Origin: Halomonas binhaiensis
GTDB lineage: Bacteria; Pseudomonadota; Gammaproteobacteria; Pseudomonadales; Halomonadaceae
Assembly (NCBI RefSeq): GCF_008329985.2
Contig: NZ_CP038437.2
Span: 2,418,001 to 2,482,000, forward strand
Length of the DNA: 64,000 nucleotides
Direction of reading: 5' to 3'
Shown: positions 1 through 16,698 of the stretch, in pieces
Layout of the letters: each line of letters begins with the position of its first letter
How positions within the stretch are numbered: position 1 is the stretch's first letter
Program-made: the position numbers and the translations under genes
Notes under the pieces: generated by a model
What the model was told of the DNA's origin: nothing
Databases searched by the model: none
What the model saw: the letters and a program-made list of their open reading frames with translations, nothing else

Positions 1-90
1 TGCGAGATTTTTATAAAAAATAGTTAGCTAGATAACATAGATACAATAAAAATGGAGCAATGAGAAAACTGAGACAAACTCACCACATTG

Positions 91-144
91 CAATGGATTA
101 GTATCTGAAACGGCAGGATCAACGGCTGGTGGTTTCCGCCATAA
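91..144 (+). pseudogene. Decayed transposase C-terminal tail (copy 1)
   Basis: Read on the plus strand, these bases encode QWISI-stop-NGRINGWWFPP-stop. This is nearly the same as the tail at 2535-2588 but carries a TGG-to-TGA nonsense change. The rest of the transposase is missing. It precedes a 207-bp repeat, as copy 2 does, so both are probably remnants of one insertion element. Bases 1-90 are AT-rich and show no recognisable gene. Confidence 0.5.
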
Positions 145-180
145 ACCAGCGCCAGAGGTATTCAAGAAGTGAAGGAAAAG

Positions 181-387
181 ACAGGTCGTCACTGTCCACG
201 GTTGGTATGCATGCAGGATATGAGACAGGAATGAAATTGCATAATTTGATCAAGGTTCAACCATACACATAGACAAACCTCCAGCGCTGCCCATGCAGCG
301 AAGGAGGTTTCAGCAAAGCTTCAACAGAAAATAAGACGGTTTTTATCAAAAAATCGTTAGCCCGCTAGCGTGGACACTGTGGACGGG
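181..387. repeat. 207-bp direct repeat, copy 1
   Basis: This segment matches 2635-2841 without indels (constant offset 2,454) and with only a few substitutions. It contains a 14-bp imperfect hairpin at 275-310, with outer arms AAACCTCC and GGAGGTTT, inner arms CGCTGC and GCAGCG, and loop CCAT. It ends at GTGGACACTGTGGACGGG. On the minus strand it lies directly after the orphan immunity-like gene, so the hairpin could also end transcription there. It may be the non-coding end of the decayed insertion element or a recombination scaffold for CDI cassettes. Confidence 0.85.
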
Positions 388-404
388 ACACACCAGTATA
401 ATAG

Positions 405-968
405 TCAAACACCTGAAGCATACTCTTCGCCAAGAGACACAGCTCGGTCAATGTAGTCCTTGGTGATGTAAGGCACGAATCCAAGCCGATCTCCCGCTTC
501 GAAACTGGACTGATAGGATTTCAGCTTTTCTACATTACCAAGCAGCGCCAAAGCAGCAAGGTGCCAAATAGGCTTGGCACCAGGCACATTAGTTGGCATA
601 GCAGCATGCTCTTGCAATGCCCTGTCCAAATCTTGTTCCTGCGCCCAAGCAATCGCCTCCTCCGATCCCTGCCGGACGTGTTCGTCAAGGATTTCTGGGG
701 CTTGAATGCGCAAGCCCTTCCACGACGTAAGAAGTGGAGTAGTTTCTCTGCGGCTGGAATCAACCACTGCACAAGCATTAGAGAAAGCATCCGTTGACGT
801 TGAACGCATTACCCATAGCTGCTGATCGTTCGTCAATCTTTTCATCCCGTAAATGATGTCTGCAGTTCGATCTGGTAATCCATAGGATGCCAGCCTGTCT
901 CCCACCTCATCTCTCGATATAGACCATCCTAGCAATTTCAAAATGTTTGTAATTTCAACAATATTCAT
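405..968 (-). CDS. Putative orphan CDI immunity protein (unrecognised family)
   Basis: This 187-residue protein belongs to no family I recognise. It has no signal peptide or membrane segment and looks like a soluble cytosolic protein with an acidic to neutral mix of helices. Its ATG overlaps the stop codon of the upstream CdiA C-terminal remnant by four bases (ATGA at 965-968). That is the layout expected for a cdiA-CT/cdiI pair, so I infer that it neutralises that toxin. GGGGCAGG upstream of the ATG can serve as the ribosome site. The 207-bp repeat begins 18 bases beyond its stop. The immunity role rests only on position; an unrelated small protein is possible. Confidence 0.6.
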   Translation of the reverse strand: MNIVEITNILKLLGWSISRDEVGDRLASYGLPDRTADIIYGMKRLTNDQQLWVMRSTSTDAFSNACAVVDSSRRETTPLLTSWKGLRIQAPEILDEHVRQGSEEAIAWAQEQDLDRALQEHAAMPTNVPGAKPIWHLAALALLGNVEKLKSYQSSFEAGDRLGFVPYITKDYIDRAVSLGEEYASGV

Positions 969-2182
969 TGGCCTGCCCCTGGAAACTCTTGTACTTCAAT
1001 AGGAATACCATTTGGATAGCCCTGCTCTCGCAATGGAACACCAGGTTGCAAACCAAACCTATCAGCAATCCTACCTCGTGGTATGGCATCCCCATTTTCG
1101 ATCTGCGGAAAAATTTCAGTCTGCCGGATACTTAGGTCAGCATTTCCGGTCTTGATCTCGACAATCCCCTTCTTTCCATCAGGTGTTTCGTAAATGATAT
1201 CAGGTCGACAACGCCCCGGACCGCAAGAACTGCCAAAAGACGCTTCACCGTCTGCAACCCGATAGCCTTGACTCTCCAACTGGTTGATCACATCGGTACG
1301 CATCGCATTGTGATGCTCATAATGATCACGAATGGTTAGGTTTGGCCCTGCACTTGAAGTGTCAGGTATTCCTTTTCCATCAGCGTGGCTCTTGCCACCT
1401 TTCTTCAAACCTCCAGCACCGATCACTACACTGGCAGCGAATTCCCCACCACCTAACAGGTAACGGTCTCTCTTATCGGTGCTACCGTCAAGCTCGTAGC
1501 CTTCAATGCCTTCAGCTACGTAACGCCCGACGATGGCGGGTATTTCCGCAATGATACCGCCAACCTGAGTCTCCGCCACGGCAGCATTGGCCAGATAGAT
1601 AAGCACTCCCTTTGGCCCCTGTGCAGCGACTAAGGCATATTCCACCGCGCTGGCCAACTCGGGGTTCTCTTCCAGATAGGCATTAATTTCGGATGCCCCT
1701 TCCAGTACCACTTGTGCAGGGGTCGGTGGTTTCTTAACCCCAGTCACAACCTCATCAGGCAGCTCTACCGCCGGAATGACAACAACCGGCTGTCCGTCAG
1801 CATTGAAGCTGGCACGGGGTTGTTTTTCTGGGGTATACGCTGTCCCTGCATCAACCCCACCGTCGGCAATACGTTTCGCATTAGCCAGAACGCTCTGCTG
1901 GAATTCAGGATCCGAGAGCGTCGCCTTCGCTTCCTCAGCGCTATAGCCTTCGCGGATCAGGCGATCAAACATGATCTCCGCCACTTCCTCACCGCCGATT
2001 GCTACCGCTCCTCCCGGTGCGGAGTGGGTCAGTGCAGTGACCTCGCGCCCCAACTGCACATAGTTGTCCTTCATCTGCTGTGGCAGTTCAGCGTATTGCT
2101 CAGGCAGGTCCTTGGCCTGCTGGCCCCAGCGATTGGCGGTGTCTACCGGGTTCGACACATCCTCAACCGAGCTTTCCGTCAC
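965..2182 (-). CDS. Orphan CdiA C-terminal fragment with PD-(D/E)XK-like nuclease motif
   Basis: This 405-residue product is the end of a CdiA/filamentous-haemagglutinin protein without its secretion half. The called start is a GTG (reading MTESSVEDVSNPVD), but the frame stays open upstream to about 2437. There it encodes text typical of CdiA pre-toxin regions, such as TWDIEGSYSSLDREQINRGT, so it is a displaced 3' end rather than a stand-alone gene. The last ~120 residues carry D328, E342-I-K344 and Q354 in the order RPDII, GIVEIKTG, IRQTE. This matches a PD-(D/E)XK nuclease core and suggests a DNase or RNase toxin. The upstream edge abuts a transposase tail on the other strand. It may be silent, or be expressed only after recombination with cdiA. 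Confidence 0.7.
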   Translation of the reverse strand: MTESSVEDVSNPVDTANRWGQQAKDLPEQYAELPQQMKDNYVQLGREVTALTHSAPGGAVAIGGEEVAEIMFDRLIREGYSAEEAKATLSDPEFQQSVLANAKRIADGGVDAGTAYTPEKQPRASFNADGQPVVVIPAVELPDEVVTGVKKPPTPAQVVLEGASEINAYLEENPELASAVEYALVAAQGPKGVLIYLANAAVAETQVGGIIAEIPAIVGRYVAEGIEGYELDGSTDKRDRYLLGGGEFAASVVIGAGGLKKGGKSHADGKGIPDTSSAGPNLTIRDHYEHHNAMRTDVINQLESQGYRVADGEASFGSSCGPGRCRPDIIYETPDGKKGIVEIKTGNADLSIRQTEIFPQIENGDAIPRGRIADRFGLQPGVPLREQGYPNGIPIEVQEFPGAGQ

Positions 2183-2426
2183 GTACAGGTCGGTCTGGCT
2201 CGATTCATCCTTGGTGACGACCTGGGCGCGGTCGATATCGCGGTTGATGTCGGCAAGTTCGGTATTGCGCGGGGAATCGGGACTACCGACTTCTATATCG
2301 CCCTGGCCGAGGGTGCCGCGGTTGATCTGCTCGCGGTCGAGGCTGCTGTAACTGCCTTCGATGTCCCAAGTGGTGCGGTCGTCCAGGCTGTCGCCGGTTT
2401 CGTTGTCGCGTGGCAGGCTGGTAATG

Positions 2427-2588
2427 ATGAGTGAATTTCGCTGCTGGTATAACCATGCCAGACCGCATCAGCACCTTGGCGGCTGTACCCCAGCAGAAGT
2501 GTGGGAAGACAGAGGAAAATCCACCCATGCACCGCAGTGGATCAGTATCTGGAATGGCAAGATCAACGGCTGGTGGTTTCCGCCATAG
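2427..2588 (+). pseudogene. Transposase C-terminal fragment (copy 2)
   Basis: On the plus strand this reads SEFRCWYNHARPHQHLGG followed by CTPAEVWEDRG and ends in NGKINGWWFPP-stop. WYN-x-x-RPHQ-x-LGG-x-TPAEVW is the familiar C-terminus of rve-type (IS3-like) transposases. The N-terminal and DDE core are absent. The fragment joins the CdiA remnant near 2430, which marks the insertion or recombination breakpoint. Confidence 0.65.
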
Positions 2589-2634
2589 GGCAGGCTGAAT
2601 AGCACGAAAAACCATCAGCGAAGAGAAAGAACAG

Positions 2635-2841
2635 ACAGGTCGTCACTGTCCACGGTTGGTATGCATTCAGGATATGAGACAGAAAAGAAATTGCATAATT
2701 TGATCAAGGTTCAACCATACACATAGACAAACCTCCAGCGCTGCCCATGCAGCGAAGGAGGTTTCAGCAAAGCTTCAACAGAAAATAAGACGGTTTTTAT
2801 CAAAAAATCGTTAGCCCGCTAGCGTGGACACTGTGGACGGG
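2635..2841. repeat. 207-bp direct repeat, copy 2
   Basis: Second copy of the segment at 181-387, with the hairpin at 2729-2764. The stretch 2589-2634 between the transposase tail and the repeat does not match copy 1. From 2842 to 2904 there is only a short gene-free spacer containing another GACGGGACACC string next to the stop of the following minus-strand gene. Similar GACGGGA-ACACC strings occur at 383, 2911 and 3182, each at the end of a cassette gene. Confidence 0.85.
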
Positions 2842-2904
2842 GCAGCTATTTTCTGGACTGCTCTGCCACCGATTAAGGCGAAATATTCGTGATCTCTAAC
2901 ATTC

Positions 2905-3108
2905 TCAGTGCAGACGGGACACCACCTTTTTCTCTAACCACTCTTGGCGAGCTTGATTCAAGCTCTGTTGATTCGCGCCACCAGCATAATCAGGATTAGC
3001 TGACTGAACGGGGTCATCTTCCCAATTGCAGACCGAGCATATTTCATACTCACCCAGTTCTGAAATAGTGAATGATCTGCAGCACGGACACTCAAAAAGT
3101 TCGCTCAT
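2905..3108 (-). CDS. CPCC-family cysteine-rich protein, orphan immunity-like
   Basis: This 67-residue protein begins MSELFECPCC and has a second cysteine pair in EICSVCNWEDDP, followed by DYAGGANQQSLNQARQEW. That is the signature of the CPCC family, small zinc-ribbon-like proteins often found as immunity partners in polymorphic toxin loci. I chose the internal ATG because the frame upstream of it (to 3192) does not look like this family. No toxin with which it would pair is adjacent, so it looks like an orphan immunity gene kept after its toxin was lost. It follows the cdiI gene in the same direction and could be co-transcribed with the CDI operon. Confidence 0.65.
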   Translation of the reverse strand: MSELFECPCCRSFTISELGEYEICSVCNWEDDPVQSANPDYAGGANQQSLNQARQEWLEKKVVSRLH

Positions 3109-3192
3109 AGTTGGTTCCAGCTTTCCGCCGTTGATGGCTTCCCGGATGGCCAGGCCTGCCTGACACAGCTGGATAGAGCGGACGGGATACAC

Positions 3193-3390
3193 CTATTTTT
3201 CGGCCAACTCTAGCTCATCTCCAGCAATTACCGCCAAGGCCCTAGTTGTCCCGCAGGGTTCCGAAAACTCTACCTCGTAATTCCCATCGCCGTAGTCTTC
3301 AATGATGTATCCAATGTCGCCCAGGTTGATCTGTTCTTTGGCGTTCATCGAACCGACATAACGAACACGGCTGTAGATTGAAAGTTTCAC
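3193..3390 (-). CDS. cdiI: CdiI immunity protein, DUF4926-like
   Basis: This 65-residue protein starts at a GTG that overlaps the cdiA stop (GTGA). It has the pattern of DUF4926: VKLSIYSRVRYVGS, then GDIGYIIEDYGDGNYEVEF, then a short tail. DUF4926 is a small SH3-like family found as an immunity partner. The AAGGAG Shine-Dalgarno lies inside the last codons of cdiA, so translation is coupled to the toxin and the producer always makes the antidote. It should bind and block the CdiA C-terminal toxin in the cytoplasm. The longer frame from an upstream ATG (to 3459) would overlap cdiA by 73 bases and lacks this ribosome site. Confidence 0.7.
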   Translation of the reverse strand: MKLSIYSRVRYVGSMNAKEQINLGDIGYIIEDYGDGNYEVEFSEPCGTTRALAVIAGDELELAEK

Positions 3391-6300
3391 TGACGACTCC
3401 TTGTAAAACCAGAGAATGGTGTATTGAGCTTCAGCGAGCCGTCGGGTTGAACCATCCAACCCGACTGAAGATAGCTGGTTTGGCCACTAGCCGCACCTTT
3501 GCCTGGCAACGCGATTTCGATGTTAATGCGCTGCCCATATTGGTCGGCCTTACCCAAGGTAAATTCGCCGCTCGCATATTTCTGCGCAGCTTGGACCTGC
3601 CAAATTCGCGATAGATTCGCAGAATCATCTGCTGTGTATCCTAGCGACTCGAACACCACATTCTTCCCGTGGTCTGCATCGGGCTTGAAGATATAGTCAG
3701 AGAACTTCCGCGTATCAACGACAGCACTCTCTTCATTGGCTGCCGTATTTGAAACATCCCCTTCACTATACACCGGCCCACCGATCAGGTCCGTCCCTTC
3801 TGGCTGATACCCACCTGGCGAGGTCGTATCCCCTGCCGGATTTTCCGCCGGGTTCTCAAACCGTCCCGGTCGATCGATGTCATAACCTGCGGGATATTCG
3901 GTGTTCGGGGTTTGGGTGTCTGTATCGGCGGGATAGCCGGGGATGCCGGGCAGTTGATTGGCATTGGCCGGGGTTTCGGTGCGGTTGTTTTCCTTGTTCC
4001 AGGCGTCGATCAGTAGGGTTGCCGCAACGAGCGCACCAATCGGGGTCTTGGCGCCTTCCCCAACCGCCAGCGCTGCGCAAGCTGGCCTGCGGGAGCAGAC
4101 CTGTGCAGCGAAACGTATAAAGCCTTGGTAGTTATTCTCGGCTTCGTTATATGCCGCTCCCGCCCCTTGGGCTCCACCGATGACACCACCGGCTCCCGCT
4201 GCCGCCAGTGCAGCAATCGCCGTTTGCACATCCTGCGGCAAGCCACTGTCTTTCAAGGCGTTGGCCACTGCAGGAGCCACCTGGGTGGAGGCCACGGCCC
4301 CTGCCGCCCCTTCTACACCGCCGGTGGCGCCGCCAATCAGCAGGTGGCCGACGGCACGACAGGCACCGTTGGCAGACCAACATTGGGCGCTTTCGCTATC
4401 GCCGCGCTCCAGGGCATCCAGCCACTGGCCGTTGGCCTGTTCGCCCCAGGCTTCGCTGGCTTCATGCCCGAACTGGCCGGTAATGGCCACCTGGGCATCC
4501 AGTTCCTTCTCCAACTCGTGCGGGTCGACGATGGGCTCGATGCCGCCGGCGTCGTCGCCCGTACGAATATCCTTGTGGCCGGCGATACCGCTGACCCCAG
4601 CCCGGGTGATGCCGCTGTCGCTGCCGCTTTCCTCGGCCACACCAATCTGGCTGCCGGTGAACTCGGGGTTATTATTGGTCTCACCGAAACCGGCACTGAT
4701 CCCGATGCCCTGGCCGTCATACTCGGCCTGATTGATGATGTCCTTCGTGGTGATGCTGGCCGTATCCAGCCGGTTACGGCCTTCCTCGACCGCCTTGTCG
4801 GTGCTGGCAATGGCCCCGCCGATCAAGTCGGTGTTGCCTTGCACGTCGATCTGGAAGCCACCATCCCCGGTGAAGATGCCGCTTTGCTCGGTGACGGAGG
4901 CGTATTCGGCATCCACTTGCTGACCACTGAAACTCAGGCTGCCGCCGCTGACCGGGCCAATGGTGATGCTGCCTCCGGCCTGGAAACTGCTCGACTCGTA
5001 GTCGCTGGTGTCCTGGCGACTGGCAATGGTCAGGTCGCCGCCGACATCTCCTTGCACCTGCGGCGCTTCGATACGCGCGCCTTCGAGGCGAGTATCACCA
5101 CCGCTGATGAAACGCACACCTTCGCCGCCCTTGACCAGACTGTTGGTGTGCACGAGGTCATCGCCTTCACCCTCGCCACGGCCAACGCTGGCCGCCACGG
5201 TGATACCGGTCTGCTGCCCAATGCTGATGCCAATGCTGCCACTGTGGTTGCGGCTGTCCTGTTCCAGGGTCGAGGTGTTTTCGGCGGACTCGATCAGCAG
5301 GTCGCCTTCGGCGGCAAGGTTGGCCTGCCCACCGGCGTTGATTTCGCTGCCACGAATGTGCAGGTCACTGTCAGCGCCTTCGCCACTGGCAATCAGGGTG
5401 ACATCCCCGCCGGCCAGTACCTGGCTGCCACGGGCGGTGCGCGTGTCGGTTTCGGTGACGTTCTTGCTGCTGCTGCCACCGATGCTGATGTACAGCGAGC
5501 CGGCATTGCTGACATCACCACTGGCCAGGGCCTGCCCGGCAGCCGCCAGGTCATCGGCATTGTTGTAGAGATGCAGCGCGCTACCGGCAGCGGCCAGCCC
5601 CTGCATGCGCTCGGAATCGGTGTTGCGCGACGCCTCGCGCATGTTGTCCACGGTATTGATGGCGGTGACCACCGCGCCGCTGACACCCAGCGACAGCCCA
5701 CCTTGCTTCATGCGCTCTTCGCTGCGTGTGCTCAGGCTGTCATGGCTTTCGACGATAGCGATACTCGATGCGGTAATGTTGATATCACCGCCAGGAGCCA
5801 GCACATCACTGCCGATCTGTTGATAGTCGCCACCGGCCAGGATGTTGACATCGCCATCGATGGCCCCGACCGTGCTGCCGCTGTGGTAAATGCCACGCTG
5901 TTCCTGGTCGAGACTCTGCGACTGGCTGCCTAGGGTGATGCTGGCCCCGCTGCTGAACACGCCGCTCTTGCTCGTCTTCTCGTAGTGGTCCTCGTTGGCG
6001 TAATGCTCGGAAGGCGTAATGCCAATATCACCACCCGCGCTGAGCGTGGTGCCATGGTCGCTGATCACTTCACTGCCGATCACGTCCAGATCACGCCCTG
6101 CATCAAGGAATACGGTGTCACCGCCAAACTGGCTGGCAATACCTTCGCTCTCTTCACGTCGGGTACGCCGCTTGGTCGTCTTGCTCGACAGGAAGCCGCT
6201 GTGTTTCTTGTTATATTCCTCCTTGTAACTTTGGCTGGCCTCTCCGGCGCCGATGCGAATATCGTTGCCGGCACGGGCGACCAGGGCGCCGCCAGCATCG

Positions 6301-9300
6301 GCCTGGGCGGCCCGAGCGATGACATCACGCCCGGCGTCCATGATCAGGGTGCCCTCGGCGCTGATCCGGCTGCCCACCTCGCTATCACGCTGTTCGGTGA
6401 TGTAGTTGCGCGAGTCGCGTTCGACATGGGAGTAACGGCTGAGATCGAGGGTGCCCAACTGAAGATCGCGCCCGGCGTCGATGCCGACACTGCCCGTCGA
6501 TATCACCTCGCTTCCTTTCAGGGTCACGTCACGCCCGGCCTCGGCCTTGAGCACGCCGTCTTTACCGCTGACATACAGCCCGGCAAGGCGGTCGATCATG
6601 GTGTGCGAGAAGTCCGACGCGCCGACTTGGTTTACCCCGCTGGAGGTGGTGCTTTCGATGTTGATGTCACGCCCGGCGGACACCTCCAGCAGGCGCTCGG
6701 CGTCGATGACGCCACCGATGTTATCGATATCAGTGCGTGCATGGGCGACCACGCTGTCACCGGTGATACGGCCATTGAGGTTGCGCAGGTTGTCGGTATT
6801 CAGTTCGACCGCGGTGCGCCCGGCGATGGTGCCGCTGTTGACCAGGTCGTCGCGGGTGGTGAAGTTCACGCTGTCCCCGGCCAGCAGGGTGCCATCGCCG
6901 TTCAGGTCGCCTTCGCGCACGCGCACATACACCTGGGGCACCAGCACCTTTTCCGTGCTGCCGTCGGCCAGGGTCACCTCGCGTTCCACCAGCCACACGA
7001 TATCGCTGGTCAGTTGCGCCATCTGCGCAGCAGTTAGCCCGATGCCGGGGCGCAGTTGGTGTTCCGCGGCAAAGGTCAGCCCGGCATTCATCAGGGCACG
7101 GAACTGGTCTTCGTCGCTGCGCTGGCCATCCAGATAGCGCAGCCCGGTCAGGCGCATGATCTGCTCGGCGATCAGGCGCTGTTCGTACAGGCCATCGCCC
7201 ATGCGTTTGTGGCTGGTGGTCGGGTCCTGCTGCACGGCCTTGAGCATGTAGTCGGAACTCAGCCATTCACGCCGGTCGGTAAAGCGTGGGTCGGTCTCGA
7301 TCAGCACGTCGGCATTGGTCGCCGGGGCGAGCTGGAACAGCGAACTGGTGGGTACGCTCAGTTCCGGCGACACGGTGCGCACCACTTCAGGGGTATCCGG
7401 GTTGGCCTCGGCCAGCGCTTGCCCGGCGGCACTATCAGGCCCGGCAATATCCGAGCCATTCGCATCGGGTGGTGCAACATCATTGCTATCGGGGAGTGCC
7501 AGGTCTGCGCCTTCGATGTTGCGACCACCGGTTTGCGTCTTGGTGGCCACGGCCACCACTTCGACGATCTGGCCGCTCTGTCCGCCATCGCTTGCGGTGA
7601 TATCCTTCAGCTCCCCACCTTGTGGGCCGGCTTGTGGGCCACGGGCCTCGTCGTCCACGCTGCCAGTGTGGCGGTCTTCCAGCCCATGGTCGCCGCCGCT
7701 GCCGTTCTGGTGGCTTTCCATGCGCGCCACGCTGAGGTCGATGGTGGTGGTTTCATCAGCAGGCACCCAGGGGCCCAGCAACTCCCAGTCGCGGGAACGA
7801 CAGTAGTTGCCACTGCAGCGCTTGCCATCGGTGAACCACCGCTCTCCACCGTCTTCGTAATGCACCCGACGGGTGCCTTCGGCATCGCGGTTTTCGATAC
7901 GCAGGAAGTCCGCCGTAAGCGCGCCACCGGCGATGATCTGGCTCTTGTCGTTGAGCAGTGTGCCACCTTGCAGCGTCATATCACCGCCGGAAAGAATCTT
8001 TCCTGGCGTGCTATCCAGCGTCTGGGTTTCATAGACGCTGCGCTCGCCTTCGAACTGGGTCCAGTCCTGAATATGCTGGTGCCACTCGGCGATGCGCTCG
8101 GCGGTACCGAAGGTGGTGTTATAGGCGGCAATTTCCTCATCCAGCGCGGCGTAGCGCTGCTGTGAATCAGCTTCCCAACTGGCGTGCTCGCTTTGCCATT
8201 GAGCGTGGGCGGCCTGATAGGCTTCCTGCGTGGTGAAGGCATCCGGGCGCGGTTCCTTGGGTTCTGGCGCGGGAGGCATCACACCAAAATAGGTCCAGGC
8301 TGGATTATTGATAGGATAATCGGCATCCGCCACACGCGGCGTTGGCGACCAGCCCAGTACGGCATCTTCCTTGGGCGGCGGCGTGCCATTCCAGGCAATG
8401 TACGTCGCCCCACCGGGCTTGTCAGTGAACCCAGAAACTGGGTCATTACGCTTCACATACTGGCCGCCTGCCTTGTCGTACCAGTCGAACAGCGAGACGT
8501 CATATTCAATACCCGGAGCGGGATAACGCTTCCCCCCAACGATGGTGATATAACCCGTCGGCCCTTCGACCTGCACTTCCTCGGTGGTGAAGTGGGGATT
8601 GAGGTTGTTCAGCTCACGAGCGTGAATCGTGAGCCCACCCAAGGATTCGATAGTGGCACCGATGTTGTCGACTTGATCGGCGATGCCGGTGGCATGGCGC
8701 TGGTCATCCAGGTGCCCAGCAATATTGAGGGCATCGGCGCCGCTACCGGCGCTGAAGATCAGGCTGTCCTTGCCACGATTGACCAGGGTGCCGACGCCAA
8801 TGTCGAGCCGTTCACGAGCAGCGATGGTGGCGGAGGCCGTCTCGCCATCGAGGGTTTCTTTACGGTTGGTGAGGGTATCCGCCTGAATGGCGAGATGGTC
8901 ACCGTAGATGCGCCCGCTGCCGATATTGTCGAGGGTGGTGGCGTTGATATAGGTGGTGTCGCCATCGATCAGGCCGCGGTTGGTCAGGCTGCCATCAGCA
9001 ATCACCTCGGTATTGCCAGCACTGATGACACCACCGAGGCGGTTATCCACCTCCGCGCCATGCACGCGCAGGTCATCCGCCTGCATGACGCCGTGGTTGG
9101 TCAGCTTGCCCTGGGTATCGAACACCACCTTGCCGTTGGCGGTGATTTCGGCGTCCTTGGCGTTGGTGAAGTCATCGCGAAGCGTGACGGTCAGGTCGCC
9201 CTGAGACAGCACACGGCCATCGCCACTGAGCGTATCGGCGGTCAGCGTCTGATTACCCGACGAGAACAACGTGCCAGCGGTGTTGGTGATGGCATCCCGC

Positions 9301-12300
9301 GTGATATCCAGCGACCCTTGGGAAGCAATCATGCCTTCGCTGTTATCAAGAGATCCGTTACCACCGCCTCTCGTTATGCTGATCTTGCTGTCGGCAGCGA
9401 TCAGGCCCTTGGCATTGTCAATCTGGCTGGCATGAAGCTCGACCGTATCGCCTTGCAGGCCGAGTACGCTATTCGGATCATCGGAAAGCGTTTCGCTGTT
9501 ATTCAGGGTATTGGCATTGACATACAAGGTACTGCCGGCAGAGATCAACCCTTCGGTGTTATCAAGTTGGCCGCCGGTCACTGTATCGAGGCTGGCACTG
9601 AAACGGTTGATGGCAGGGCCTTCGAGAATGACAGAGAGACCCTCGCCCGCTAGCAGTTGGCCACCCTGATTGCCCACTCCGCGGGCATTCAGGGTGACTT
9701 TGGCCGCACTGCCTATCACGCCCTGCTTGTTGCTCAATTTTCCAACATGGGCGATCAGGGCTTGCTTAGCAGAAACCAGGCCCGCGGCATTATCCAGGTC
9801 ACCTGTCGTCAGGTTCATGCCGCCGCCACTGATCAGGCCGCCTTTTTTTCCTGAGTTGGTGTTGGTCAGGGTATGACCGGCGGTCTCCACCACCATGTTG
9901 CCTTGCGACTGGATCAGGCCGCTATCGTTGTTCAGTGCCCCGCTATGGATCGTCACTAGGCCGGTTTCGGGGCCTTGGGATGCGCCATTGCCTGCTGGGG
10001 CTTCGCCCTCTTTATCAGAAATCGTGGCAATGGTGCCGCCGGCGCTGTTGTCAAGGGTCTGCTTTCGGGTGTTGATGTCGATCTCGGCGCCCAGGATCGA
10101 GCCGCCGATATTGCTGAGCCCAGTGCTGATGATGTCGGCGCGTCCCTGCGCCTGGATCACACCACTGTCATTACTTAGTTTGTCACCACCGGTCAGGCTG
10201 ACATCTCCCTGCCGAGAAACCAGCACCCCGTTCTCATTGTCGATCTGTTGGCCGATGGCAGCGGTCAACGCCCCATCCGACTGAATCGCACCGCTCTGGT
10301 TATCCAGCGACAGGGCATCCAGGGTGATGCTGTCCGCGCCGAGAATCACGCCGCCACCGGTATTACTCAGCGTGGAGGCATGGGCGATCAGGGCTTGCTG
10401 CGCTGAGATCACACCACCATCGTTGAGCACATCGCCGTACACGGTTTCGCCATTCTCGCGGTTGATCGTCAATGCCCCACGACTGATCAGACCGCTTTTC
10501 TCTCCTGAGTGCGTATTGGTCAGGGTCTGGCCGGCCGTATCCACCACCATGTCGCCCTGAGACTGAATGAGGCCGGTATCGTTATTGAGTTCACCACTAT
10601 GGATCGTGACGCTACCATCACCGGAAAGCGCTTTCCCCGTGTTGTCGTTGAGCGTGGCAATGATGCCATTCGCGCTGTTATCGAGGGTGTGCTTACGGGT
10701 GTTGATGTCGATTTCCGCACCAAGAATGGAGCCGCCGATATTACTGAGGCCTGCGCTGATGATGTCGGCGCGTCCCTGGGCTTGAATCGCTCCGCCATCG
10801 TTGAACAGTTTGCCGTCACTGGTCAGGTGGGTATCGCCTTCGCGGGACACCAGCACGCCACGCTGGTTCTCGATTTGCTGGTCGACGTTGGCGGTCAGGG
10901 CCCCATCCGCCTGTACCGTGCCATCCTGGTTGGCCAATGACGTGGCGTTCAGGGTGACGCTATCTGCACCGACGATCACGCCACCCTCGGTATTAATCAG
11001 CTTGGCGGCATGGAGGTTGAGGGCTTGTTGGGCGGCGATCCATCCGCCAGTGTTGTTGACATCGCCAGACACGCCTTCGCCATTATTGATCAAGTTCGAG
11101 TCCGGATTGATCGTCAGCGCCCCACCACTGATCAGGCCACGTTGCGCGTCATCTTCGCCCTGAGCCTGAGTGTCAGTATTGGTCAGGGTATGACCCGCGG
11201 TATCCACAACCATATCGCCCTGCGACTGAATCAGGCCGCTATCGTTATTCAGCTCACCGCTGTGGATGATCAAGCTGCCATTGCCTGAGGGCGCTTTACC
11301 CGCTTCACTGGGGAGCGTGGCAATCACGCCGTTCTGGCGGTTATCGAGAAGTTGCTGACGGGTATTAATGTCGATGTGTGTGCCGAGAATGGTGCCGCCG
11401 ACATTGCCGAGGCCACGGCTTGTACTATCGACCTTGCCCTGGGCTTGAATGATGCCCTTGTCATTGGTCAGCTTGCCACCACTGGTCAGGTCCACATCAC
11501 TTGTGGCAGAAGCCAACAGCCCAGCGCTGTTGTCGAGGGTCTTGTCGACACTGACCGCCAGCTGTTGTTCGGCCTGAACGGTGCCACCCTTGTTACTCAG
11601 TGAAGTGGCGGTCAAGGTGACATCCGCGGCGGCACCGATCACCCCTTCATCGTTGTTCAACTTACCCGCCGTCAGGGTCAGGCTGTCAGCACTGATCAGG
11701 CCACGTGGGGTATCATCATCGCCCTGGGTATGGGTATTGATCAGTGCCTTGCCAGCAGTATCAATGGACAGGTCGGCCAACGACTGAATCAGTCCGCTGT
11801 CGTTGTTCAACTCGCCACTATGAATGATCAGATAGCCATCTTCAGTTCCCTGATCGTTTGCACGGCCTTTTATCGTGGCAATGGTGCCGCCGGCACTGTT
11901 GTCGAGCGTCTGCTTGCGGGTGTTGATATCAAGTGCGGTGCCGAGGATGGCGCCACTGGCGTTATTCAGCCCGCGGCTCTTGATCACCACATCGCCGCCC
12001 GATTGCAGGGTACCGCCGTGGTTATCGAGCTGCCCACGAGTCGTCAGCGTGAGCGTGTCACCGCCGAGCGCGACAAGACGACCTCCAGCGGTGATCAGCC
12101 TCTGGCCATCGATCGTGATGCGTTGAGCCTGGGTGGTGCCATTGCTCAGATCGAGAATGCCGCCGTAAAGATCCAGGTGGCCGTTGCTGACGATGGTGCC
12201 GCCGTTGCCGCTCAACTGGGCGGTGTCGATGGTCAGCGTGCCATCCCCGGCATGTTCGACGCTTCCAGACACATTGCGGAAGGTCGCGGCCTGTATCGAC

Positions 12301-14900
12301 TGGTCACCGCCACTGGTGATGGTGCCTTGGGAGTTGTCGAGCGTTTCGGCGACATCGAAGTGGGCATCGCCAAACACGTTGAACGTGCCGCCCTGATGGT
12401 TAACTGCCTGATTATTGACAGACAGCGCCTCGAGCCACAGGTCGCCATTGGTGGCAATGCGGCCAGCGCGGTTATCGATGTGTCCGGTGGTTGTCAGTGT
12501 GAGCTGCCCATTGCCTAGCGCGGTAAGACTGCCGCCGGCAGTGATCAGCGCTTGGCCATCCACCGTGATGCGTTGGGCCTGGGTGGTGCCATCACTCAGA
12601 TCGAAGCTGCCATCGTACAGGCCCAGGTAGCCATTGCTGGTGATGGTGCCGCCATTGCCATTCAGGCGCTGAGTGTGGACGGTCAATTGGCCGTCACCGG
12701 CATGCAGAATCTGCCCACCGGCATTACCCAGGGTCGCGGCACGAATGTCCAGATCGCCATTGCTGGCCAGGGTGCCGCCGGCACCGTTATTCAGGGCATG
12801 GCGTACCGTCAGGGTGCTGGGCTGATCGCCGCCCAGGACAATGTGGCCACCGCGGCTATCGAAGCTGTCAGCGTCAAGTGTCAGTTGCTCGGCATTCAAG
12901 GTGGCGCCGCGATGATCCACCTCCGCTGCCGTCAACTGCATGGCGCCAGCGGTTGTAATAGTGCCATCGCGACCGTACAGATCAGCGCTGCTCAGCATGA
13001 GCCCAGCGCTGCCGGCATGCTCGATGGTACCGCCTTCGTTGTATAGCGTACCGGTCTTCAGGGTCAGTTGGCTGGCGTTGCTCGTCAGGGTGCCTTGGGT
13101 GTTGTCGAAAACACCGTGGCCATTATCAACAGCACCGTAAAGATTCAGGGTGGTTGCGGACGTATCGCTCAGCGCTAGAGTACCGCCTCGGTTATAGACA
13201 TCCTGGGCGGTGAAGGTCAGGGGCCCGGATATCTGCCAGACACCTGCATTGTTGTTGACTTGATTGACCTGAATATCAGCAGGGCCATCGATGATCAGCT
13301 CCCCGCCCTGGTTATTCAGGTTGCCGCCCTTCAGGGTCAGCTCGCCGAGACCAATATGACCGCCTGCGTTATTGAGCCCCGTGCTGCTGACCAGATCCAT
13401 ATGCGCGGCACTGATGGTGCCCGCGTCATTGTTGAGCGTGCTGGCAATATTCAGGCGACCATCGGCCAGTACCTCCGGCATATAGTCTGAGCCGTCGCCC
13501 GCCGAGCCACCCCCGTTATTGGCACCCCCACCATTGCCGCTGGAACCTCCCCCTGAGGTGCCGCTATCCGTTCCGCTATTGTTACCACCGCCTGAATCAG
13601 GCTCGGGCAGGCCGATACGTCCACCCTGGCGATTGGAGAGCGACCCAGCGTTCAGGGCCAGAGCTTGCGATCCGGTCTGTTCGATTTCGCCATACAGGTT
13701 GCTCAGAGAATCGGCCTGGAAGTCGAGGCGCGGGGCGCTGAGCGTGCCGTGGCTATTGTCGATGTCACGCGGGGTGGTGAGGGTCAGCTCGCGAGCGGCT
13801 GTCACATCACCACTATTGCGGATACCGCCTTTGGCGGAGAGCCAAGTATTTGACGTTGATGACTGTAACAGACCGGTGTTTTCCACCCGGCCATTGGCTG
13901 TGACGCGCAGTTCTCCCGCCCGGGCACCAATCTGACCGGCATTGTGGACCCCGACCCCGGCTTCCGTTGCCACAAGGCGGATTTCATTGGCGTACATTCC
14001 CCCTAGATGGGCCACGTCGATGGCCACTTGCGGGGCCGTGCCCTGGCCCTGAATCGCGGTGACGTCCTTGAGGTCGGCACTGATGCGATTGGCCCCGGCG
14101 ATCACGGTCAGGTCGTTGGCCTGCAGGCTTGCTTGAGCCTGCACTTCAACGGCGCGAGCTAGAAGAGCCGTGTAGTCACTGTCGCGGGTATCCAACCCGC
14201 CACCGGCAATCTCGATCTTGCCGCCGCCGACGTGGTAGCCGTTGATCATGCCATCGCGATACAGCGGGTTGCCCGTCGTCAGGGTGACATTGCTGGCGTT
14301 GATGAACTTGCCGCCGTTGATCTGCAAGCCCGCCGGGTTGGCGATGATCACGTCGGCCCGGCTGCCGGCCACTTCAATCGGCCCGCGCAGGCGGCTGGGG
14401 TCGCGAGAGTTGACTTCATTGAGGATGACCCGCGCCTCCCCTTTGGCCAGGTTGGGGTTGGCCTGCACCCAACCGCCGATCTGAGTCTGGGTGTTGTTGC
14501 GCGAGTTGTTGAGAATGGCGCCTTTGCCGTCAACATCGAACTGGCGGTAAGTGTTGTGTGACAGCCCCTTGCGGTTGGGGGTCTGGATATTGACTTGGGG
14601 CGTGCCGTTGGCCGTGTTGACGACATGAGGGCGCTGATTCGAAGGGGCGTTACGATCCGGCAGGATCTGTGCTTGTGCAATATCTGCTCCGACCAGGCCC
14701 ATACTGGCCAGCAACACCGCCATACGTAGTGGCCGAAGTGCAGAAACGTTATTACCGAGCGGAAGCGACAGGTCTGATGCTCCTGTCAGGGTCGCACCTT
14801 CTCCTCGGCTCCCTTTGCCCCTGCGCGATGCCTGCTCGGAGGTCACCACCCAACGGCCTTTCACGCGGCTGAAGATCAAGCGATAGCATTGCCGGTTCAT
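3387..14900 (-). CDS. cdiA: CdiA contact-dependent inhibition toxin / filamentous haemagglutinin
   Basis: This 3,837-residue exoprotein is exported through Sec and CdiB. It starts with an extended signal region (MNRQCYRLIFSRVKGRW) and a hydrophobic core at about 57-79. A TPS secretion domain follows (about 80-350), containing the conserved ANPAGLQINGG. A Gly/Asn/Ser linker lies near 450-475, and beta-helical FHA repeats fill about 480-2080. A Trp/Pro-rich non-repeat block at about 2100-2640 is the likely receptor-binding and arrest region. A second FHA repeat zone reaches about 3400. The pre-toxin domain ends near YNEAENNYQ (about 3590), a VENN-like boundary. The tip from about 3726 resembles DUF6883, paired with the DUF4926-like CdiI. 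AGGAGG sits nine bases before the ATG, overlapping the cdiB stop. Confidence 0.93.
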   Translation of the reverse strand: MNRQCYRLIFSRVKGRWVVTSEQASRRGKGSRGEGATLTGASDLSLPLGNNVSALRPLRMAVLLASMGLVGADIAQAQILPDRNAPSNQRPHVVNTANGTPQVNIQTPNRKGLSHNTYRQFDVDGKGAILNNSRNNTQTQIGGWVQANPNLAKGEARVILNEVNSRDPSRLRGPIEVAGSRADVIIANPAGLQINGGKFINASNVTLTTGNPLYRDGMINGYHVGGGKIEIAGGGLDTRDSDYTALLARAVEVQAQASLQANDLTVIAGANRISADLKDVTAIQGQGTAPQVAIDVAHLGGMYANEIRLVATEAGVGVHNAGQIGARAGELRVTANGRVENTGLLQSSTSNTWLSAKGGIRNSGDVTAARELTLTTPRDIDNSHGTLSAPRLDFQADSLSNLYGEIEQTGSQALALNAGSLSNRQGGRIGLPEPDSGGGNNSGTDSGTSGGGSSGNGGGANNGGGSAGDGSDYMPEVLADGRLNIASTLNNDAGTISAAHMDLVSSTGLNNAGGHIGLGELTLKGGNLNNQGGELIIDGPADIQVNQVNNNAGVWQISGPLTFTAQDVYNRGGTLALSDTSATTLNLYGAVDNGHGVFDNTQGTLTSNASQLTLKTGTLYNEGGTIEHAGSAGLMLSSADLYGRDGTITTAGAMQLTAAEVDHRGATLNAEQLTLDADSFDSRGGHIVLGGDQPSTLTVRHALNNGAGGTLASNGDLDIRAATLGNAGGQILHAGDGQLTVHTQRLNGNGGTITSNGYLGLYDGSFDLSDGTTQAQRITVDGQALITAGGSLTALGNGQLTLTTTGHIDNRAGRIATNGDLWLEALSVNNQAVNHQGGTFNVFGDAHFDVAETLDNSQGTITSGGDQSIQAATFRNVSGSVEHAGDGTLTIDTAQLSGNGGTIVSNGHLDLYGGILDLSNGTTQAQRITIDGQRLITAGGRLVALGGDTLTLTTRGQLDNHGGTLQSGGDVVIKSRGLNNASGAILGTALDINTRKQTLDNSAGGTIATIKGRANDQGTEDGYLIIHSGELNNDSGLIQSLADLSIDTAGKALINTHTQGDDDTPRGLISADSLTLTAGKLNNDEGVIGAAADVTLTATSLSNKGGTVQAEQQLAVSVDKTLDNSAGLLASATSDVDLTSGGKLTNDKGIIQAQGKVDSTSRGLGNVGGTILGTHIDINTRQQLLDNRQNGVIATLPSEAGKAPSGNGSLIIHSGELNNDSGLIQSQGDMVVDTAGHTLTNTDTQAQGEDDAQRGLISGGALTINPDSNLINNGEGVSGDVNNTGGWIAAQQALNLHAAKLINTEGGVIVGADSVTLNATSLANQDGTVQADGALTANVDQQIENQRGVLVSREGDTHLTSDGKLFNDGGAIQAQGRADIISAGLSNIGGSILGAEIDINTRKHTLDNSANGIIATLNDNTGKALSGDGSVTIHSGELNNDTGLIQSQGDMVVDTAGQTLTNTHSGEKSGLISRGALTINRENGETVYGDVLNDGGVISAQQALIAHASTLSNTGGGVILGADSITLDALSLDNQSGAIQSDGALTAAIGQQIDNENGVLVSRQGDVSLTGGDKLSNDSGVIQAQGRADIISTGLSNIGGSILGAEIDINTRKQTLDNSAGGTIATISDKEGEAPAGNGASQGPETGLVTIHSGALNNDSGLIQSQGNMVVETAGHTLTNTNSGKKGGLISGGGMNLTTGDLDNAAGLVSAKQALIAHVGKLSNKQGVIGSAAKVTLNARGVGNQGGQLLAGEGLSVILEGPAINRFSASLDTVTGGQLDNTEGLISAGSTLYVNANTLNNSETLSDDPNSVLGLQGDTVELHASQIDNAKGLIAADSKISITRGGGNGSLDNSEGMIASQGSLDITRDAITNTAGTLFSSGNQTLTADTLSGDGRVLSQGDLTVTLRDDFTNAKDAEITANGKVVFDTQGKLTNHGVMQADDLRVHGAEVDNRLGGVISAGNTEVIADGSLTNRGLIDGDTTYINATTLDNIGSGRIYGDHLAIQADTLTNRKETLDGETASATIAARERLDIGVGTLVNRGKDSLIFSAGSGADALNIAGHLDDQRHATGIADQVDNIGATIESLGGLTIHARELNNLNPHFTTEEVQVEGPTGYITIVGGKRYPAPGIEYDVSLFDWYDKAGGQYVKRNDPVSGFTDKPGGATYIAWNGTPPPKEDAVLGWSPTPRVADADYPINNPAWTYFGVMPPAPEPKEPRPDAFTTQEAYQAAHAQWQSEHASWEADSQQRYAALDEEIAAYNTTFGTAERIAEWHQHIQDWTQFEGERSVYETQTLDSTPGKILSGGDMTLQGGTLLNDKSQIIAGGALTADFLRIENRDAEGTRRVHYEDGGERWFTDGKRCSGNYCRSRDWELLGPWVPADETTTIDLSVARMESHQNGSGGDHGLEDRHTGSVDDEARGPQAGPQGGELKDITASDGGQSGQIVEVVAVATKTQTGGRNIEGADLALPDSNDVAPPDANGSDIAGPDSAAGQALAEANPDTPEVVRTVSPELSVPTSSLFQLAPATNADVLIETDPRFTDRREWLSSDYMLKAVQQDPTTSHKRMGDGLYEQRLIAEQIMRLTGLRYLDGQRSDEDQFRALMNAGLTFAAEHQLRPGIGLTAAQMAQLTSDIVWLVEREVTLADGSTEKVLVPQVYVRVREGDLNGDGTLLAGDSVNFTTRDDLVNSGTIAGRTAVELNTDNLRNLNGRITGDSVVAHARTDIDNIGGVIDAERLLEVSAGRDINIESTTSSGVNQVGASDFSHTMIDRLAGLYVSGKDGVLKAEAGRDVTLKGSEVISTGSVGIDAGRDLQLGTLDLSRYSHVERDSRNYITEQRDSEVGSRISAEGTLIMDAGRDVIARAAQADAGGALVARAGNDIRIGAGEASQSYKEEYNKKHSGFLSSKTTKRRTRREESEGIASQFGGDTVFLDAGRDLDVIGSEVISDHGTTLSAGGDIGITPSEHYANEDHYEKTSKSGVFSSGASITLGSQSQSLDQEQRGIYHSGSTVGAIDGDVNILAGGDYQQIGSDVLAPGGDINITASSIAIVESHDSLSTRSEERMKQGGLSLGVSGAVVTAINTVDNMREASRNTDSERMQGLAAAGSALHLYNNADDLAAAGQALASGDVSNAGSLYISIGGSSSKNVTETDTRTARGSQVLAGGDVTLIASGEGADSDLHIRGSEINAGGQANLAAEGDLLIESAENTSTLEQDSRNHSGSIGISIGQQTGITVAASVGRGEGEGDDLVHTNSLVKGGEGVRFISGGDTRLEGARIEAPQVQGDVGGDLTIASRQDTSDYESSSFQAGGSITIGPVSGGSLSFSGQQVDAEYASVTEQSGIFTGDGGFQIDVQGNTDLIGGAIASTDKAVEEGRNRLDTASITTKDIINQAEYDGQGIGISAGFGETNNNPEFTGSQIGVAEESGSDSGITRAGVSGIAGHKDIRTGDDAGGIEPIVDPHELEKELDAQVAITGQFGHEASEAWGEQANGQWLDALERGDSESAQCWSANGACRAVGHLLIGGATGGVEGAAGAVASTQVAPAVANALKDSGLPQDVQTAIAALAAAGAGGVIGGAQGAGAAYNEAENNYQGFIRFAAQVCSRRPACAALAVGEGAKTPIGALVAATLLIDAWNKENNRTETPANANQLPGIPGYPADTDTQTPNTEYPAGYDIDRPGRFENPAENPAGDTTSPGGYQPEGTDLIGGPVYSEGDVSNTAANEESAVVDTRKFSDYIFKPDADHGKNVVFESLGYTADDSANLSRIWQVQAAQKYASGEFTLGKADQYGQRINIEIALPGKGAASGQTSYLQSGWMVQPDGSLKLNTPFSGFTRSRQ
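10069..12000 (-). repeat. Long in-frame repeats inside cdiA
   Basis: Four copies of a block encoding INTRKxTLDNSAxGxIATI followed by GELNNDSGLIQSQ recur. Anchor points at 10069, 10699, 11362 and 11920 give periods of 630, 663 and 558 bp, all multiples of three. A further two-copy repeat (period about 450 bp, encoding GTTQAQRITIDGQ) follows at about 12.1 and 12.55 kb. These are duplicated FHA rod segments; copy number could vary between strains and change filament length. Confidence 0.8.
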
Positions 14901-14913
14901 GGGCCAGTTCCTC

Positions 14914-16698
14914 CTACAGGGTCACGTACAGGCTCAGGGCGAGGTCGTAGTCGTCGGTCTGAAAGCCATCTGGCTTCAGCAACGGTGCGGCAATCGAAGC
15001 GTCATACTGAAAGCGGCTGTTACCCAGGCTGCCGCGCACGCCCAGCGCGGTGCCTGCCAGGCGCTTGCCCAGCAGCCATTTGGTCGAGGGGCCATCGACC
15101 TGCCCGTAGTCGAGCCCGACGTAGAGGGACTGGCCACTACGCCCCACATCCGCCTCGAGTTCGTTGCGTACCAGCCAGCCACGCTCCGCGGTCAGGGTGT
15201 TATCGGTGAAGCCGCGCACGCTATAGCGACTACCGATGGAGAACTGCTCCAGGGGTGTCAGTGGTGTCAGGTTGTGCTGGAGGCGCAACTGGCCGAGGTA
15301 GCGTAGCGACTGCTCTCCCAGCAGGAACGGCACACTGAGATCCGTCGTGGAGGTGATCAGCTCGAAATGCGAGGTGCCTTTGATATCAGCATCTGCCCCG
15401 AAGTCCGTCTCCACTTCTTCAGGAGCGGGCAAGGAACCAAACGCCCCTGTGCCGCGCTGATAGTTCAGCTGGATATTCAAAAGGCTGTTGCCGATGAACT
15501 CGCGGTGGTCGATCCCGGCTTCCCAGCCGCCTACCACCCGGCGCTGCACCTCGATCTCACCGTCTTCGAAAAAATTGCGTGACTGACGCTGAAAGGCGCC
15601 CGCCGATACAGTGGTCTTGCGCGAGGCATCCCGGTAGACCGTCCGCGATAGCGTGGCACTGAGATCACGGCTGGTACCGCTGTATTCGTTTGTCTCAGAA
15701 GGCCCAGCGATGCTCTGGTGGTAGGCGTAATCACTGGCATCGAGCCTCAAGCGCCAGTAGCCCCAGGGAATGGAATAGTGCGCGAGCCGGCTCTTGTTGC
15801 CACGCGGGCCAGGATAGCCACCACCGGCATCCTTGCTCAGCGAGATATACGCCAGATCGTTGAGTCCCAGCGGGTTGTCATAGGACAGCGTGACACCGGC
15901 GAGGTAACGACCGGTGGCATCGGTGCCACTGTTATCCAGCGACGCGCTGGCACGCAGTGGTCGCTTCTGTTGGTAGGCGATGACCAAGTCGCTTTCGCCA
16001 GGCTCTCCACCCGGCGCAATCTGAATGTCCACATCCACGGATGGCAGATGCTGGAAGTTTTCCAGCGCCTGCTCGATATCTCTCAGATTGAGGATGTCAC
16101 CCGGGCGTGCCGGCAGTGCATTGCGCCAGCTCGCCCATTTGGGGTTGGGGTCTGCCCAACGCACATGGGCAATGCGACCGGGCACCAGGGTCAATATCAG
16201 GGTGCCATCATTGAGATCCTGCGGTTCTACCAGTACCCGGCTGGTGACAAAGCCTCGATCGATCAGGGCATTCTGGGTGCGCTTGAGCACCAGGTTGATG
16301 CCTTGGGTGCCCAGACAGCGCCCCAGCGGAGAATCTTCCTCGCTATCACCTAGCGCCGCATCCCGCAGCCAGCCAAAGCGTTCGATGGCCTCGCCCTGCA
16401 CGTGCAGTTCACGGATGACGAAACACGGGGATTCTTGATCCGGGAAGCGTTCCAAGGCTTCAAGTGGCACATTCAGACGGACATCAGGCCGTTCTTCGAG
16501 ACGCTCTCGCAGGGCTTCCTCACGCTGCTGCTGACGCAGCACTTCGTCGTTCTGTCGCAGGCGCAACAATTCATCATTCAAGCGCTCCTGTGCTGATACG
16601 CCTGGGCTGCTCAACAGCCCCGTGAGCAAAGATCCCAGCAAGAACCCGGCGAGCTTCCAGCGGCATGGCGATGGCTTGAAAGTGATTATTAGTGACAT
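14914..16698 (-). CDS. cdiB: CdiB/FhaC-type outer membrane two-partner secretion transporter
   Basis: This 594-residue Omp85/TpsB porin exports CdiA across the outer membrane. A signal peptide ends near GVSAQ (about residue 36), followed by a Gln/Arg/Glu-rich plug-linker helix. POTRA_2-type sequence covers about 90-165 and a second POTRA about 165-245. The 16-strand barrel follows, with PWGYWRLRLDASDYAYHQS and the conserved VRGFTDNTLTAERGW (the VRGY/F motif of the L6 loop). AAGGACAGGG precedes the ATG. Only 13 bases separate it from cdiA, so the two are co-transcribed. Length matches the ShlB/FhaC family. Confidence 0.93.
   Translation of the reverse strand: MSLIITFKPSPCRWKLAGFLLGSLLTGLLSSPGVSAQERLNDELLRLRQNDEVLRQQQREEALRERLEERPDVRLNVPLEALERFPDQESPCFVIRELHVQGEAIERFGWLRDAALGDSEEDSPLGRCLGTQGINLVLKRTQNALIDRGFVTSRVLVEPQDLNDGTLILTLVPGRIAHVRWADPNPKWASWRNALPARPGDILNLRDIEQALENFQHLPSVDVDIQIAPGGEPGESDLVIAYQQKRPLRASASLDNSGTDATGRYLAGVTLSYDNPLGLNDLAYISLSKDAGGGYPGPRGNKSRLAHYSIPWGYWRLRLDASDYAYHQSIAGPSETNEYSGTSRDLSATLSRTVYRDASRKTTVSAGAFQRQSRNFFEDGEIEVQRRVVGGWEAGIDHREFIGNSLLNIQLNYQRGTGAFGSLPAPEEVETDFGADADIKGTSHFELITSTTDLSVPFLLGEQSLRYLGQLRLQHNLTPLTPLEQFSIGSRYSVRGFTDNTLTAERGWLVRNELEADVGRSGQSLYVGLDYGQVDGPSTKWLLGKRLAGTALGVRGSLGNSRFQYDASIAAPLLKPDGFQTDDYDLALSLYVTL

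Follow-up and report, generated by a model that had tools for sequence, protein, structure and literature searches.

Orphan modules of contact-dependent growth inhibition (CDI) systems are well known (PMC3150448, PMC4725963, PMC9086364). In those described by Poole et al. 2011 (PMC3150448), a CdiA fragment bearing a pre-toxin motif and a small downstream gene lie behind a cdiBAI locus, with mobile-element remnants near them. A 64,000-nucleotide stretch of Halomonas binhaiensis (contig NZ_CP038437.2, positions 2,418,001 to 2,482,000; hereafter the window, to which coordinates refer unless a locus is named) holds a comparable arrangement: a toxin fragment and its partner gene are located downstream of a cdiB-cdiA-cdiI locus, in the same direction, and the fragment contains the pre-toxin motif LYVT together with stalk homology. 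It differs from the described orphans in that its stalk is unrelated to the resident cdiA genes, a trait reported in the same work for one Yersinia orphan, and in that direct repeats of one insertion sequence (IS) end bracket the module. Judging from the sequence, we consider it likely that the window carries an orphan CDI toxin/immunity module that came from elsewhere, with a PD-(D/E)XK-type nuclease as toxin tip and a DUF6990 protein that blocks it, and that the intact immunity gene probably protects its bearer. The module comprises a toxin frame (965-2182, minus strand, 405 aa, GTG start) and a partner frame (405-968, 187 aa), just as the original prediction had placed them, the toxin TGA and the partner ATG sharing ATGA in a 4-base overlap.

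Other described systems resemble parts of the module. The LYVT motif also opens the variable region of class III Pseudomonas CdiA proteins (Mercy et al. 2016, PMC4725963), but the three class III rows in Table 1 of that paper (Tox-REase-7, AHH, and one without a named domain) include neither this toxin nor DUF6990. A D + ExK pattern at the CdiA C-terminus is shared with the PD-(D/E)XK CDI toxins TA271 and YPIII (DNases) and Bp1026b and E479 (tRNases) (PMC9086364); however, these are not among the sequence matches of the tip, and DUF6990 is not named for them in the available part of that paper. The VRR-Nuc effectors TseV (PMC9635880) are likewise antibacterial PD-(D/E)XK nucleases with a cognate immunity protein, and among the sub-threshold Pfam leads for the tip VRR_NUC ranks first, its cut-off being missed. 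TseV is delivered by a type VI secretion system and countered by DUF3396 proteins (PMC9635880), whereas the partner here is DUF6990. Tox-REase-1 and -6 (Zhang et al. 2012, PMC3482391) are listed with conserved E, D, ExK and Q (plus Y for -6) and with Imm-PA2201 and Imm49 as partners; here the partner is DUF6990, there is no Pfam match and the first E is not invariant. The pair had been predicted to be possibly new, and indeed neither the toxin family nor a role for DUF6990 appears to have been described, within an arrangement of known kind: no mention of DUF6990 was found in the literature searched by that name, and the toxin family lies outside all library models tried.

The DUF6990 partner

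The partner had been said to match no recognised immunity family; it does belong to a family, DUF6990 (PF22499; 208.3 bits against a gathering cut-off of 27, E=1.1e-61), although the function of this family is unknown. When loci are collected through the toxin, DUF6990 is the next gene in 4/4 genome loci and in 2/2 plasmid loci. Collection through the partner, with the window left out, yielded 19 places: five from plasmids, two from a 398-genome sample of the phylum (the third match being the genome studied here) and 12 from the genus to which the P. petrae genome belongs, where 11 of 328 genomes gave a match. The toxin domain stands directly upstream in seven of them (L019, L022, L039, L044, L045, L050, L051), with broken frames in L044 and L051, and only a C-terminal toxin tail in eight others (L020, L021, L023, L043, L046, L047, L048, L052), the tails of L021 and L048 being recognized by a hidden Markov model and the remaining six by eye, among which L043 and L020 are least alike. 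L039 and L043 belong to a P. petrae genome first reached via the toxin; without them, toxin domain, tail only, and neither are found in 6, 7 and 4 of 17 places. pSymB of Sinorhizobium meliloti USDA1021 encodes a 535-aa, cdiB-type frame with ShlB and POTRA domains, then a 3041-aa CdiA with a two-partner secretion (TPS) domain that ends in this tip, then DUF6990, so that the module forms the tip of a CdiA elsewhere, a comparison that the original prediction had asked for. Because a toxin or toxin tail precedes DUF6990 in 15 of the 19 places and the order in USDA1021 is as described, DUF6990 is best read as the immunity protein of this toxin, in line with the toxin/immunity pairing first proposed. 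A Pfam family of unknown function would thereby gain a likely function, as immunity protein of one nuclease-type toxin.

S. meliloti Ak57 carries a different tip and partner allele on the same backbone end as USDA1021, and downstream of it a 3' remainder of a partner of USDA1021 type, the trace of a tip swap; the Ak57 CdiA frame starts without an N-terminus, and the annotated protein gave no match to a TPS domain. Together with the loci holding a tail plus partner, this swap shows that the toxin is lost while immunity stays. Within the P. petrae group, three genomes were inspected over a wider stretch (L062, L063, L064), and in these the module or the partner lies behind a long frame that is CdiA-like by eye and has a different C-terminus, and the module is therefore also orphan there. 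The toxin family is found in records of alpha-, beta- and gammaproteobacteria. DUF6990 is rare and occurs in 1/275 genomes of the family to which H. binhaiensis belongs, namely its own. Synonymous divergence (NG86) was obtained in two of the six pairs tried: dN/dS values are 0.231/2.131 for the tip and 0.334/1.607 for the partner between the window and L019, and 0.057/1.127 and 0.217/1.749, respectively, between L003 and L045, which suggests purifying selection on both, as a rough estimate with dS >1.

Some DUF6990 places have a particular layout. At L015, DUF6990 is the C-terminal part of a 403-aa frame. The L016 member (1399-1944) is weak, with 29.5 bits for the cut-off of 27, and no toxin match lies nearby. 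L021 (NZ_CP137494.1, 1-1794) is a circular 1,794-bp P. aeruginosa "plasmid" record annotated with one cdiI and one DUF6990 gene only; besides these, the record contains this toxin's tail and a spacer in direct repeat (105 nt, 75% identical) that belongs to another element, and it is either an excised cassette or an assembly artefact. The P. aeruginosa gene may be among those listed by Allen and Hauser 2019.

The toxin tip

The residues D328, E342, K344 and Q354, from which a nuclease had been predicted, correspond to D49, E63, K65 and Q75 of the tip and are invariant in 8/8 complete tips (pairwise identity 49-90%), which includes the D + (D/E)xK conservation of the superfamily. Among the three broken-frame relatives, D, E, K and Q are all retained in the pieces of L044 and L051, and the pieces of L005 are devoid of the stretch holding D. 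The motif by itself is no evidence for a nuclease, since the loose D..(D/E)xK..Q pattern is as common in shuffled frames (mean 12.0) as in the window (10 of 200 frames of at least 100 aa); with PD required, it occurs in 1/200 frames against 0.74 in shuffles. A strict pattern (PD and two aliphatics, then aliphatic-(D/E)-aliphatic-K, then Q), written after seeing the tip, is found in 1/200 frames, in 0/50 frame shuffles and in 0/2000 tip shuffles. Weak, sub-threshold sequence matches were returned with VRR_NUC, MmcB-like, PDDEXK_1 and Cas4-like nuclease families, and HHalign puts the D, ExK and Q of the tip in register with VRR_NUC, at low probability; the MmcB score (24.4) exceeds the best of 50 column shuffles (16.2). 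Most top rows of the structural list, e.g. Hjc and I-Ssp6803I, are proteins that we take to be of the PD-(D/E)XK superfamily, all below significance and obtained with a weak tip model. The outcomes named in advance as refuting the original prediction did not arise: no significant match linked the tip to a non-nuclease family or the partner to an enzyme family; sub-threshold ones exist. The cut-off of VRR_NUC (PF08774) was not reached by the tip family, two of whose four members match (best E 0.012), the window member giving no match. Tox-REase Pfam models are absent from the six families listed up to E=10 for these four members, HMMER filters dropping most matches above 0.1.

Several observations weigh against the proposed reading. 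No named nuclease or toxin family reaches its cut-off for the tip, the HHalign probabilities are 11.8% (VRR_NUC) and 14.7% (MmcB), the VRR_NUC score (23.3) is below the best of 50 column shuffles (24.7), and the tip structure model has a mean pLDDT of 51 with a best Foldseek E-value of 0.65. On the genomic side, a TPS-bearing CdiA carries only one of the eight complete tips (L022, whole as L065), the L002 tip is on a 4-kb contig and the others are orphan or on shortened backbones; moreover, four of the 19 DUF6990 places (L015, L016, L049, L053) have neither toxin nor tail, and the neighbour gene in L016 is autoinducer-synthase-like by eye. Nevertheless, the tip is more likely a PD-(D/E)XK-type nuclease, with DNA the likelier substrate. 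An RNase of the same fold, e.g. a tRNase, is possible but less probable: the four PD-(D/E)XK CDI toxins with structures are two DNases and two tRNases (PMC9086364), whereas the nearest leads here (VRR-NUC, Hjc, I-Ssp6803I), all below significance, are DNA enzymes. As to the partner, a chaperone or regulator that merely travels with cdi loci is very unlikely, given its tight coupling to one toxin, which it often outlives, and its faster divergence (mean pairwise identity of 42% against 66% for the tip in eight pairs). Immunity proteins often diverge faster.

Layout, origin and probable present role of the module

The features of the locus are as follows.

14914..16698, minus strand: cdiB, 594 aa, ShlB with POTRA_2 and POTRA_3
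3387..14900, minus strand: main cdiA, 3837 aa, with TPS domain, hemagglutinin repeats and C-terminal DUF6883
3193..3390, minus strand: DUF4926 gene (PF16277, E=1.4e-9), probable immunity gene of the main CdiA; start placed by overlap with the cdiA stop, the open reading frame being listed from 3459
2905..3192, minus strand: CPCC-family gene (PF14206, E=3.7e-19), possibly a further orphan immunity gene
2424..2844, plus strand: 3' end (transposase C-terminus) of an element that we take to be of IS3 type, adjoining the CdiA fragment and 79% identical to the copy beside cdi locus C
2189..2422, minus strand: CdiA stalk fragment, 5'-truncated; 67-70% identity to part of a 1083-aa hemagglutinin-repeat frame in another genome (G043)
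2177..2188, minus strand: pre-toxin motif LYVT (class III; motif named in PMC4725963), the called GTG start being its V
1346..2176, minus strand: N-terminal part of the CdiA C-terminal region (pre-toxin, possibly cytoplasm-entry), related to a CdiA end bearing a Tox-HNH-HHH tip
965..1345, minus strand: nuclease-type toxin tip, residues 280-405 (126 residues), with the four invariant residues and sub-threshold PD-(D/E)XK leads
405..968, minus strand: DUF6990 protein of 187 aa, probably the immunity protein (cdiI) for the tip
90..390, plus strand: the same IS end a second time, as a direct repeat; repeat families D4 (97%, 225 nt) and D6 (91%, 54 nt)

The CPCC-family gene has the main immunity gene on one side and the IS remnant on the other, and the IS end at 90-390 lies 14 bases behind the stop of the partner gene. 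The genome has three cdi loci, the two others (B and C) also with ShlB and TPS genes; the locus C cdiA (L027 4339-14940; genome 4184339-4194940) has an LHH nuclease domain at its end, plus DUF637, and no named tip was found among the domain matches of locus B's long cdiA frame (L025 4263-14069).

The toxin frame is open and intact up to 2467 (500 aa). CdiA homology begins at ~2422 and IS homology at 2424, so that the piece at 965-2422 is a 5'-truncated CdiA gene joined to the transposase remnant at 2422-2424. The original prediction was right that the CdiA-like reading continues past the called start, and set its limit, 2437, about 15 bases too far. The GTG at 2182 is probably not a real start, because its upstream sequence matches 3/6 bases of the Shine-Dalgarno consensus and it lies inside LYVT. 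An ATG at 1972 (residue 71) has 5/6 Shine-Dalgarno bases at a distance of 11 bases, and a shorter product that would still hold the tip may begin there.

The fragment had also been described as cut from a full cdiA; it is a CdiA fragment, but a foreign one and not a piece of any cdiA in this genome. Its 364-residue stalk is without a second relative here, whereas a different genome from the same genus does contain one. Stalk matches are confined to three of 275 genomes of the family, i.e. H. binhaiensis itself, G043 of the same genus (70% identity over stalk residues 6-147) and G132 (46% identity over stalk residues 126-359; locus L034, 44% over 234 aligned positions). No blastn or tblastn match links the stalk to the stretches holding the three cdi loci, and its LYVT motif differs from the pre-toxin motif of the cdiA of this genome. 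In G132, the stretch common with the stalk precedes a Tox-HNH-HHH tip, hence the tip is the part that is exchanged. GC contents are 60.8% for the main cdiA, 57.5% for the stalk, 48.6% for the tip and 48.4% for the partner, with third-position values of 70.4%, 60.7%, 39.7% and 45.7%, respectively.

At the end of a complete CdiA, the tip would enter a neighbour on contact and cleave its DNA (or RNA), and DUF6990 in the cytoplasm of sister cells would bind and block it. Here, where the toxin part has neither a secretion region nor a good start at its front, it is probably neither made nor exported, and the intact immunity gene would probably protect against neighbours whose CdiA bears this tip. 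The data show the anatomy of the module, the co-inheritance of its two genes, the conserved residues and the presence of the tip on a CdiA with TPS domain in another species; fold, activity, substrate, binding, expression and protection are inferred from them. We propose protection as the present benefit because the partner frame is intact and because E. coli EC93 offers an analogy, its orphan module yielding the immunity protein while the toxin was not detected (PMC3150448). That the locus is instead plain debris, left for a time from a cdiA that was displaced or imported, toxin and partner both being out of use, would fit the lost 5' end, the poor start signal, the IS remains on both sides and the frequent reduction of the toxin to a mere tail or to broken frames in other genomes. 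We find this unlikely, as neither the 500-codon frame nor that of the partner is interrupted, and the partner is open in six of the eight tail-only places (exceptions L023 and L052), as expected if the partner alone is kept. The original prediction called the toxin archived. A reloadable archive would be one from which recombination brings this tip onto the upstream cdiA. The tip and its partner have been swapped between the cdi loci of two S. meliloti strains, and an orphan was fused to cdiA by deletion in another species (Poole et al. 2011, PMC3150448), but the stalk is devoid of detectable DNA or protein similarity to the three resident cdi loci, with only IS ends in common. There is thus no upstream anchor for homologous recombination, and a reloadable archive is highly improbable; a deletion may fuse the module to the upstream cdiA.

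Insertion sequence ends and possible cassette mobility

The IS ends around the cassette are direct repeats 2,454 bp apart and 97% identical over 225 bp, and the copy beside cdi locus C includes a 196-aa frame with rve_3. In this 4.9-Mb genome, all eight repeat copies and all four transposase remnants found sit at its three cdi loci. One reading, which we consider improbable, is that a cdi-dedicated IS3-type element moves orphan cassettes in this genus: a cassette lying between two such repeats could be excised as a small circle that does not replicate and then integrate at a different cdi locus. The circular P. aeruginosa record L021 would fit this reading, although its repeated spacer belongs to another element. 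If true, IS-mobilised cassettes would be a variant of the circle theme of Burkholderia thailandensis, in which IS-framed CDI circles are known (PMC9086364; PMC6350997). By eye, similar IS remnants are located on both sides of the CdiA fragment of G043 (L033). Searched in the 64 kb with two mismatches allowed, the IS-end string TGTGTCCCGTC is not enriched (7 matches, 20.3 expected). With zero to one mismatch, it is found only at 382-392, 2913-2923 and 3181-3191 (minus strand), and these three sites are located at the ends of the three immunity-type genes.
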